Assembly (NCBI GenBank): GCA_027068915.1
Contig: JAMOLT010000055.1
Coordinates: 1-64,000, forward strand
Source: Sedimenticola sp.
Lineage (GTDB): Bacteria > Pseudomonadota > Gammaproteobacteria > Chromatiales > Chromatiaceae
Direction: 5' to 3'
DNA: 64,000 bases
A program made the position numbers and the translations under genes. Each line of letters starts with the position of its first letter. Position 1 is the first letter of the stretch. The notes beneath the pieces are model-generated. The model was not told where the DNA came from. It searched no databases and saw nothing but the letters and a program-made list of their open reading frames with translations. Of this stretch, positions 52,783 through 62,641 are shown one piece after another.

Positions 52783-52988
52783 GGTTTGCTGCGGCAATTG
52801 ATAGCAAAGACTCGCTCATTGAAAAAAGGTGGCGTTCCATATTCAATGCGCCCCAAGACACTATATTAGATCAACGGATACAGGGTTAAGTTGTATTATG
52901 TGACCTTGAGAGCACTAATATGTTTTGTTAATTGTGGGAGAGCGTGGTATAAAATCACACAAAACAAATAATAGGCGCCTCTGATAAT

Positions 52989-53060
52989 CGTCATTCCGGC
53001 GCATGCCGGAATCCATAAGTTCTTGATATCTTTAGGCACCGGCCTGCGCCGGTGTGACGA
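52989..53060. repeat. palindromic intergenic repeat pair
   Basis: CGTCATTCCGGCGCATGCCGGAATCCATAA and GGCACCGGCCTGCGCCGGTGTGACG, the familiar TCATTCCGGC-type bacterial palindromic repeat. Confidence 0.7.
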
Positions 53061-53356
53061 AAATAGAATTATTCGAGGTGCCCTGATGAATACTAAACAA
53101 CATTATAGTTTTACATTGACCGGCTTTCAGGAACCCAGGGGGATTGGCTTCTTGTATTAGAAAATACTTGGGGGCACATTAAATTGGTTTATCAAGGTTT
53201 GTTATAGACCATGTCGATCGAATCCCAGAAATTTGTAGTCAAACAATGCTTGAGAAAACAGGTTTTAGTAAACAGTACATTACAGCATTGTCTCCTGCCG
53301 GGTTCCGCAGTAAAGTCTGGCTAAGGAAGTTCTGGATCAGTCTGCAGGACTTCACC

Positions 53357-53525
53357 TAACAGGATGTTGAAAAAGGCCTTCCATGGCTTTTTTCAACTCG
53401 GAAAGGCAAAAACGCGATTTTGTCTTTCCTCCATTTTCAATGATTTATTATTCATTGAAAATGGCCGCACGTCCTTGTGCGGCGTACAGATTGTTGAAAA
53501 ACGGCGTTTTTCAACAATCTGCTAA
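53357..53525. repeat. five-hairpin element, copy 1
   Basis: TAACAGGATGTTGAAAAA...TTTTTCAACAATCTGCTAA; five successive stem-loops; nearly identical copy at 62474-62641. Confidence 0.9.
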
Positions 53526-53553
53526 ACCAGCGAATATCCTGAAGGAGGATTTT

Positions 53554-54150
53554 ATGAAGAGAAAACTAGCTCTCAGTGCTGTGTTGATTGCCAGTGGGTT
53601 TGCATTCAGCACATCCGCCATGGCGGAGACACCCAGCGCAACCATGCTTGCGTATACCTGTGTGGGTTGCCATGGTACGAATGGCAACAGCAACGGCCCG
53701 GCCACGCCTTCTCTGGCGGGCGCATCCAAGGACTACTTCATCGAAATAATGGGTTATTACGCTTCTGGTGAGCGTGCTTCTACCATTATGGGGCGCATCG
53801 CAAAGGGATATACGAAGGAAGAAATCGAGGCGATGGCGGGATTCTTTTCCAAGCAGAAATTTGTGCCCGCAAAAGGGCAGAAATTCGATGCAAAGCTGGT
53901 GAAAAAGGGTGCGAAACTGCATAAAAAATACTGCGAAAAATGTCACGAAGATGGCGGAAGCTCATCGGAAGATGATGCGGGTATCCTGGCAGGTCAGTGG
54001 GCGCCTTATCTGAAATACACCCTTGCAGACATGATGGCTGGCAAGAGCCATATGTCGAAAAAGATGAAGAAGAAACTGAATAAACTGCACAAGAAGGCTG
54101 GTGATGCCGGTATTGAACAGTTGCTTCACTACTACGCCAGCAAAAAGTAA
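53554..54150 (+). CDS. fccA: flavocytochrome c sulfide dehydrogenase, diheme cytochrome subunit
   Basis: Signal peptide; two haem motifs CVGCH and CEKCH; upstream of fccB; start MKRKLAL internal to ORF. Confidence 0.9.
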
Positions 54151-54164
54151 GGGGAGAATCGGAC

Positions 54165-55460
54165 ATGAGTAATTTTACACGCAGAAAATTTCTGAAAGTT
54201 ACCGGGGTGGCAGCTGCCGCTTCATCGGCCCTTGCATTCAGCTCTTTCGCCATCGGTGGCGCGAAGAAAAAAGTGGTTATCGTTGGTGGTGGTATTGGCG
54301 GGGCGACAGCGGCCAAATACCTACGCATGATGGACAGCTCCATTGAAGTCACCTTGATCGAGGCCAACAAGGATTACTATACCTGCTTTATGAGCAATGA
54401 AGTGCTGGGCGGCGATCGTTCCATCGACTCCATTCGCTTTGGCTATACAGGTTTGGCCGGGCATGGCGTTACAGTCGTGCATGACTGGGTGAGCGGTATC
54501 GATGCGGACAAGCGCGTGGTCACAACCAAAGGCGGAAAAAGTTTCCCTTATGACCGCTGCATCGTTTCCCCCGGCGTGGATTTCAAGTGGGATGCCATCG
54601 AAGGCTACGATGAGAAAGTGGCCGAAAAAATCCCCCACGCCTGGAAGGCGGGCTCGCAAACGGTAACCTTGCGCAAGCAGCTGGAAGCCATGCGTGATGG
54701 CGGCACGGTGCTGATTGTTCCGCCTCCCAATCCCTTCCGTTGTCCTCCCGGGCCTTATGAGCGAGCCTCTCAGATTGCGCACTATCTGAAGAACAACAAG
54801 CCCAAGTCCAAAGTTATCATCCTGGATCCCAAGGACAAGTTCTCCAAGTTCGGGTTGTTCATGGATGGCTGGAAGCGCCACTATGGCTATGGCACCGGCA
54901 ATAGCCTGATTACCTGGGTGAGCGGTGCCGATGGCGGCGCCGTGGAAGCCGTGGATGCCAAAACCATGACCGTGCAGGCCGCCGTAGAGGAGTTCAAGGC
55001 GGATGTAATCAATATCATTCCTGCGCAAAAGGCCGGCAAGATCGCCTTCGCGGCGGGGCTGACCAATGACAAGGGCTGGTGCCCCATCAATGGCAAGACT
55101 TTCGAGTCCACGGTTCACAAGAACATCCATGTGATTGGTGATTCTGCCATTGCCTCGCCGTTGCCCAAGTCCGGTTATGCTGCCAATTCCGAGGCCAAGG
55201 TGTGTGCTGCGGCAATTGTTGCCCTGCTCAATGGTGGCAAGGCGCCTCAGCCTTCCTATGTCAACACCTGCTATAGCATCATTGCTCCGGGTGATGGAAT
55301 TTCTGTCGCCATGGTTTATGCTTACAAAGATGGCAAGATCATCAAGGTCAAGGGTTCCGGTGGACTCACGCCTTCGGAATTCGATCCCGACATGCGCGCC
55401 AGAGAAGTGCTGTATGCACATTCCTGGTTTAATAATATTACTGCCGATGTATTTGGCTGA
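54165..55460 (+). CDS. fccB: flavocytochrome c sulfide dehydrogenase, flavoprotein subunit
   Basis: Tat-like [44 protein letters not shown]. Confidence 0.94.
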
Positions 55461-62275: not shown

Positions 62276-62464
62276 ATGGAATGGCAGGATTTGTGGGCAG
62301 CCTTTGCATTGATGCTGATTCTGGAGGGCATATTGCCGTTTCTCAACCCGGGGCGCTTCCGCAATATGCTGCGTATGCTGGATGAGATGGATGATGCCTT
62401 GGTGCGCCGTATCGGCCTGGTGAGCATGCTGGTCGGCCTGGGGCTGTTGTATCTGGTGAGGTGA
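62276..62464 (+). CDS. DUF2065 (YjeT-like) membrane protein
   Basis: ALMLILEGILPFLNPGRFRNMLRMLDEMDDALVRRIGLVSMLVGLGLLYL. Confidence 0.9.
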   Translation: MEWQDLWAAFALMLILEGILPFLNPGRFRNMLRMLDEMDDALVRRIGLVSMLVGLGLLYLVR

Positions 62465-62473
62465 TCCTGCCCC

Positions 62474-62641
62474 TTAACAGGATGTTGAAAAAAGCCTTCG
62501 TGGCTTTTTTCAACTTGGAAAGACAAAAACGTGATTTTGTCTTTCCTCCATTTTCAATGACTTATTTTCATTGAAAATGGCCGCACGTCCTTGTGCGGCG
62601 TACAGGTTGTTGAAAAACGATGTTTTTCAACAACCTGTTAA
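62474..62641. repeat. five-hairpin element, copy 2
   Basis: TTAACAGGATGTTGAAAAA...TTTTTCAACAACCTGTTAA terminal inverted repeats and five stem-loops. Confidence 0.92.

Follow-up and report, generated by a model that had tools for sequence, protein, structure and literature searches.

A five-hairpin MITE of Sedimenticola sp. with IS5-type target duplications, from an apparently undescribed family

Introduction

As a rule, a bacterial MITE is regarded as a local and short-lived remnant of a single IS. Like the element described here, which has a predicted IHF site, the Correia/NEMIS elements of Neisseria are small MITEs (~150 bp) whose ends are palindromic, and they carry an IHF site; they differ from it in their TA target, in their ends, in forming one long hairpin and in belonging to one genus. 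REP/BIME elements, which go with REP-associated tyrosine transposases, are likewise dispersed palindromes between genes. QMITE1 and QMITE2 of Coxiella burnetii are gammaproteobacterial MITEs that also have very stable folds (PMC5896051). QMITE1 is 300-400 bp long, with 2-3-nt duplications and an IHF site, thus IHF sites in MITEs are already known; QMITE2 is 150-190 bp long, has a GTAG REP and makes duplications of 7-11 nt that vary in sequence (PMC5896051).

The element of this study occurs twice in a 64,000-nt stretch of a Sedimenticola sp. contig (the window). It is set apart from QMITE1 and QMITE2 by their descriptions. Unlike REP/BIME, it has target duplications and a DDE partner, and no GTAG motif was seen. 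In common with IS5-family MITEs (NF033581-type, YTAR), it is a dispersed, gene-free repeat with IS-like ends and YTAR duplications of 4 bp, and a sister species has a matching autonomous IS. Unlike in those MITEs, its core is no deletion derivative of the IS and consists of five serial hairpins with conserved apices, and one five-hairpin subtype has duplications of about 5 bp that are not YTAR. We consider it likely that this MITE is a local branch of a widespread five-hairpin family, mobilised by an IS5-family transposase with the help of IHF, and that its hairpins are kept at the DNA level. What appears new is the five-hairpin architecture kept across classes, the IHF-like site predicted at the midpoint, and the exchange of ends.

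Results and Discussion

Two intact copies in the window

Both copies are intact five-hairpin elements and share 92% identity. The initial annotation had placed copy 1 at 53357-53525 and listed five stems, all of which were found in the sequence and in the fold. The element proper is shorter (53360-53521); the earlier limits take in part of the target duplication, because the outer CTAA (53356-53359 and 53522-53525) is that duplication. The near-identical second copy was also found, with the element proper at 62478-62637. Features are listed below. Bit scores are from covariance model R1, in which part of hairpin 2 is misaligned and four pairs are spurious, so that they are guides only.

53356-53359, no strand: left target-site duplication CTAA of copy 1, identical to the right flank (sequence)
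53360-53521, plus strand: copy 1 of the five-hairpin MITE (CAGG...CTG), 162 bp, 179 bits with R1
53366-53397, plus strand: copy 1 hairpin 1 (H1), left terminal, holding the left inverted repeat (sequence, fold)
53400-53429, plus strand: copy 1 hairpin 2 (H2), terminator-like on the plus strand (fold, terminator scoring)
53431-53464, plus strand: copy 1 hairpin 3 (H3), central (fold)
53435-53447, plus strand: putative IHF-like site of copy 1, TTTCAATGATTTA, one mismatch to WATCARNNNNTTR, centred on the element midpoint
53464-53483, plus strand: copy 1 hairpin 4 (H4), with a constant CRTCCYTG apex, terminator-like on the minus strand (fold, scoring)
53487-53521, plus strand: copy 1 hairpin 5 (H5), right terminal palindrome, holding the right inverted repeat (fold)
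53522-53525, no strand: right target-site duplication CTAA of copy 1 (sequence)
53554-54150, plus strand: cytochrome c subunit gene, downstream of copy 1 (Pfam)
54165-55460: flavocytochrome c sulfide dehydrogenase flavoprotein gene, after the cytochrome c subunit gene (Pfam)
62474-62477, no strand: left target-site duplication TTAA of copy 2 (sequence)
62478-62637, plus strand: copy 2 of the five-hairpin MITE, 160 bp, 182 bits with R1
62484-62514, plus strand: copy 2 hairpin 1
62517-62546, plus strand: copy 2 hairpin 2
62548-62580, plus strand: copy 2 hairpin 3, with a putative IHF-like site TTTCAATGACTTA at 62552-62564
62580-62599, plus strand: copy 2 hairpin 4
62603-62637, plus strand: copy 2 hairpin 5
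62638-62641, no strand: right target-site duplication TTAA of copy 2 (sequence)

At 160-162 bp the element has no gene of its own and no transposase coding capacity. Its terminal inverted repeats are CAGGATGTTGAAAAA / CAGRYTGTTGAAAAA, which bears out the likeness to a MITE noticed earlier from the inverted-repeat ends. Folded as RNA, the 174-nt stretch of copy 1 reached -84.3 kcal/mol, compared with -35.9 +/- 4.0 for dinucleotide shuffles (z = -12.1); folded as DNA it gave z = -10.7, and none of 200 shuffles was as good in either case. The statement that no ORF explains the element was right in substance. An open frame at 53383-54150 does cross it. This frame is the cytochrome c gene extended upstream; the gene itself starts at 53554, with a ribosome-binding site. 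The flavocytochrome c sulfide dehydrogenase genes lie just downstream of copy 1, and copy 2 lies between a DUF2065 gene (stop at 62464) and a hisZ-like gene (62670).

A second palindromic repeat-like stretch occurs just upstream of copy 1, at 52975-53092 (CATTCCGGCGCATGCCGGAATCCATAA...GGCACCGGCCTGCGCCGGTGTGACGAAAAT, ends GGCGCCTCTGATAAT / ATTATTCGAGGTGCC). Sequence similar to it also occurs beside copies of the element in L004 and L008.

Target duplications and an IS5-family partner

The element is flanked by identical 4-bp repeats, nearly always TTAA, CTAA, TTAG or CTAG (YTAR). Among 161 oriented copies from 18 genomes, 67 had an exact YTAR duplication with matching ends, while a control with the right half reversed gave 0 of 161. 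A 4-bp YTAR duplication is the IS5-group consensus; it is seen in copies with CAGG- and GGAA-type ends and not in GAGGGTGTCGC-type copies. The sister species G007 has a complete IS5-family IS (DUF772 and DDE_Tnp_1; NF033581, 272 bits) that starts CAGGGTGTTGAAAAACCCC and finishes ...ATTTTCAACGGCCTG, the end pair being CAGGGTGTTGAAAAACCCC and CAGGCCGTTGAAAAT. One copy of this IS is flanked by TTAA/TTAA and another by TTAG/TTAG. It shares only about 16-20 bp with the element, at the ends, and nothing else of note.

Given the target duplications and the matching IS ends, the five-hairpin element is therefore a MITE, though one that did not arise by internal deletion of the G007 IS. It is short and non-coding, with inverted repeats, a target duplication, many copies and, in G007, an autonomous partner with the same ends. 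An IS5-family (DDE) transposase supplied by another element would recognise the CAGGNTGTTGAAAAA ends and insert the element at YTAR sites, duplicating 4 bp. The ends, the duplications and the partner IS are apparent from sequence, and from them we infer transposition itself. Among genomes with CAGG-type ends a matching IS came from G007 only; no match was seen in the IS of G202. No NF033581 or DUF772 transposase was found in G000, the genome of the window, so the source there has been lost, is unassembled or is of another type.

The same evidence bears on the alternative of a REP/BIME-type element, which a Y1 (REP-associated tyrosine) transposase would move as single-stranded DNA. Single-hairpin forms of the element do resemble REPs, a REP-associated Y1 gene (NF047646) sits among three G007 copies (L110:3197-3937), and truncated IS200-like transposase starts adjoin element remnants in G000 (L108:3704-3991) and G006 (L115). 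However, Y1 transposition would not be expected to leave 4-bp target duplications, no Y1 match was found in G009 and G013 despite their many copies, and it is the DDE IS that has the right ends and duplications. We rejected Y1 as the mover because of the duplications, which largely refute it, and the Y1-free hosts, and regard such movement as highly improbable.

Copies in the genome and the genus

The BLASTn search that had been named as a check found further copies. In G000 (2.83 Mb) there were 51 BLAST places, or about 40 separate copies, full or partial; these counts derive from searches. The end motif AACAGGNTGTTGAAAAA occurred 107 times in G000 (<=2 mismatches), compared with once for the reversed control, and some of these occurrences are solitary palindromes of ~40 bp. 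G007, assembled in three contigs, has at least 40 closely similar copies, mostly of 161 bp. By BLAST, matches were found in 13 of 14 relatives of the same genus and in none of 19 genomes of other family members outside the genus. Copies of different types had no match in plasmid and phage collections.

In G007 a subgroup of copies (the second copy of L075, L080, L082, L085, L087 and L095) has CCTT instead of CCTG at the right end, and the target duplication is usually absent from it. In L030 (G000:C23) a truncated element copy is enclosed by a further dispersed palindromic repeat (GCATCGGAAGTAAAGGCCCTTTCAGTGAGTCACAATGCGACCAGATGCA).

Remnants and decay

At the copy 2 site, upstream of hisZ, the sister genome G006 (96% HisZ identity) has a ~42-bp single-hairpin remnant, GATGTTGAAAAATGCCTTCTGTGGCGTTTTTCAACAACCTG, after the same CCCCTTAA and the same TTAA. 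This remnant consists of the outer halves of H1 and H5, fused. No element was present at the hisZ site in G010 and the other readable genomes. Together with the target duplications and the matching IS ends, the remnant and the element-free sister sites confirm the earlier description as a mobile or family repeat and a non-autonomous element. Many partial copies in G000 lack H5 only, with a junction at CAG(G/C)CTGT, a short repeat flanking H5; slipped-strand loss of the palindrome would yield exactly such junctions. Inserted copies would decay, often losing H5, and fusion of the terminal hairpins would leave single-hairpin scars.

In the same-genus species G004, another palindromic element (L290:1120-1300) lies upstream of DUF2065-hisZ, a few hundred bases from the copy 2 site. 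It is flanked by YTAR, has GGAACCTCTGAT ends and forms one long hairpin. In G048 (L160, G048:C37) a CAGG-type single palindrome directly follows a GGAA-type five-hairpin copy, and in G052 (L159, G052:C1) two elements overlap in tandem.

End types and the IHF-like centre

The ends of five-hairpin elements are of the types CAGGNTGTTGAAAAA, CAGTTTGTTGAAAAA, GGAAGCTCTGAATAA-like, GGATACTCTGAAAAA and GAGGGTGTCGCAAAAG. They differ between lineages and are often like those of local IS5-type elements. In G158, G114 and G124, resident IS5-type elements and local five-hairpin MITEs both have GGAnnnTCTGA-like ends, e.g. YTAR followed by GGATGCTCTGAACAAG. In G042, by contrast, the two differ, with GGAACCTCTGAT ends on the local IS5-type IS and GAGGGTGTCGC ends on the five-hairpin elements. 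Copies of the GAGGGTGTCGC type have duplications of about 5 bp and of variable, non-YTAR sequence (CACGA, TTCGA, TGATT, CTCAA), and a search by end pattern found no partner transposase for this subtype. The varied ends and the mismatch in G042 imply that the core is not tied to a single end type, and probably not to a single transposase.

H3 has an IHF-like WATCARNNNNTTR (<=1 mismatch) in 31 of 52 genome representatives, with strand and register nearly always the same; at the other hairpins it was found in 0-3 of 44. Its TTR part is not explicable by pairing, because it is located in the H3 loop. The centre of the site is 0.5-1.5 bp from the midpoint in most forms of 160-163 bp and about 6 bp off in forms of 150-153 bp. 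The second position (usually T for A) is off consensus in most lineages, including that of the window. A bend by IHF that joins the two ends would be the natural reading of such a site at the midpoint, and the MITE family is probably IHF-assisted. While the conservation of the site is directly observed, binding and bending of the central hairpin, by which the two ends would meet, are what we infer from it.

Neighbouring genes and the fit to a structured RNA

The initial annotation had offered a structured RNA leader and a multi-terminator as possible roles. A related alternative is a host-kept structured RNA (leader, terminator array or 3'-UTR stabiliser) that was spread by transposition and is functional at each site. 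Its very stable fold, and the conserved apical motifs and covariation described below, would suit such an RNA. So would the terminator-like scores of H2 on the plus strand and H4 on the minus strand in both window copies, but several other lineages lack the T-tract that follows H2/H4, and termination is left as a possible side effect only. Also in favour of such an RNA, many copies abut stop codons: 22 of 79 adjoined the stop of an ORF of >= 80 aa, and 14.6% of element ends were at stop codons compared with 6.2% of background YTAR sites. YTAR, however, contains TAA/TAG, so insertion at a stop codon regenerates the stop and may be simply harmless.

The leader itself is not supported, given the lack of a strand-specific wobble preference, the presence of both orientations among genes, and the different genomic sites across species. 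An orientation bias relative to genes in a small set (21 same, 8 opposite) was not sustained with stop-codon contacts over more taxa. As the hisZ insertion is absent or reduced in sisters and neither strand has a G-U-compatible excess, a host-kept RNA seems to us unlikely.

Conserved apices and covariation

In 44 genome representatives the apical motifs were CCATCCWGG (H1), AAAANTGYGATTTT (H2), ACTTRNNGT (H3) and CRTCCYTG (H4), and H5 varied with the ends. Stem positions over these representatives used several Watson-Crick pair types, although their pairing rate is biased upwards because the pairs come from each sequence's own fold. With one structure kept fixed over the genus alignment, pairing reached 93.2% of cells, compared with 88.3% when shuffled and at most 49.3% when the structure was slid. 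Covariation, another check named beforehand, was found on this fixed structure, where 18 pairs had changes on both sides compared with 10.0 +/- 1.5 shuffled; correction of palindromes can yield covariation too.

Private stem changes in the 161 copies comprised 85 G·T and 91 A·C, i.e. no strand preference, which argues against one functional RNA strand. A strand bias on fixed mismatches (H3 and H2 toward A·C, H1 toward G·T) was largely gone when counted as distinct sites. The lack of preference fits a cause at the DNA level, either selection among source copies or arm-to-arm quasi-palindrome correction. Private mutations per site in stems were about half of those at unpaired positions, a set that includes some flank, and this deficit could mean selection at individual loci. 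Double transversions were found inside single copies in L004 and L065 (CATTTTC/GAAAATG to CATGTTC/GAACATG), and 12 of 29 private stem changes in G000 preserved Watson-Crick pairing. Such compensated changes within single copies fit quasi-palindrome correction.

These changes, and the equality of the strands, would also be expected if the paired stems were functionless and template-switch correction merely rewrote the arms, covariation being a by-product carried by the MITE. We find this unlikely, as it leaves unexplained why the hairpins are fixed in number and order, why the length is nearly constant and why apical motifs are shared across classes. Since correction alone fails to keep five ordered hairpins with conserved apices, we think that both selection and correction act. 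We therefore favour upkeep at the DNA level, in which selection among source copies, palindrome-templated repair during replication, or both would keep the hairpins perfect. The earlier remark that five stems are more structure than a MITE needs was fair. The case is also a warning that strong covariation, usually taken as proof of a functional RNA, can stem from a mobile DNA palindrome.

The family beyond the genus

Model R1 was built on 28 genus copies. At E <= 1e-5, values that are rough because the calibration was short, it matched 51 of the 274 genomes in a sample of the class and 40 of the 299 in a sample of the phylum, most of the latter outside the class. In most examples read directly, the order H1-H2-H3-H4-H5 was held within about 150-165 bp while stem sequences differed widely. 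When named genomes were searched by pattern, H3-H4 junctions turned up in 88 stretches, most of which the covariance model matches over the whole element. The hosts include Sedimenticola, Chromatiales, Halothiobacillus, Ca. Tenderia, Acidiferrobacterales, Salinisphaerales, Microbulbifer, the Olavius Gamma 3 symbiont and two MAGs titled Nitrospirae. The five-hairpin plan, with quite different letters, thus recurs in dozens of bacterial families of at least two classes.

Rfam gave nothing credible up to E=1 for the copy 1 region, and 18 loci of diverse taxa were also without a match. A literature search, with most subscription papers outside its reach, found no published description of a five-hairpin element. 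The element is apparently an undescribed MITE family, and genome annotators and RNA-motif searches would gain from a family model.

Across dozens of families the number, order and apices of the hairpins and the near-constant length are kept, while stem letters and terminal repeats are replaced. With this family one can ask by experiment whether bacterial transposition depends on DNA secondary structure itself, and whether a non-autonomous element is able to change its transposase. Tentatively, and with more doubt than confidence, we suggest that the core is an ancient selfish nucleic acid that has a structural role in its own right, such as that of a folded single strand or an IHF-seeded protein-DNA assembly. 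Such a core would swap end modules, outlive transposase lineages and parasitise several transposase types in several classes, perhaps in another phylum.

The copies in the Nitrospirae-titled MAGs would reflect either cross-phylum transfer or a binning error. They are five-hairpin copies in contigs L199, L206, L252 and L238, one of them with CTAT/CTAT flanks.
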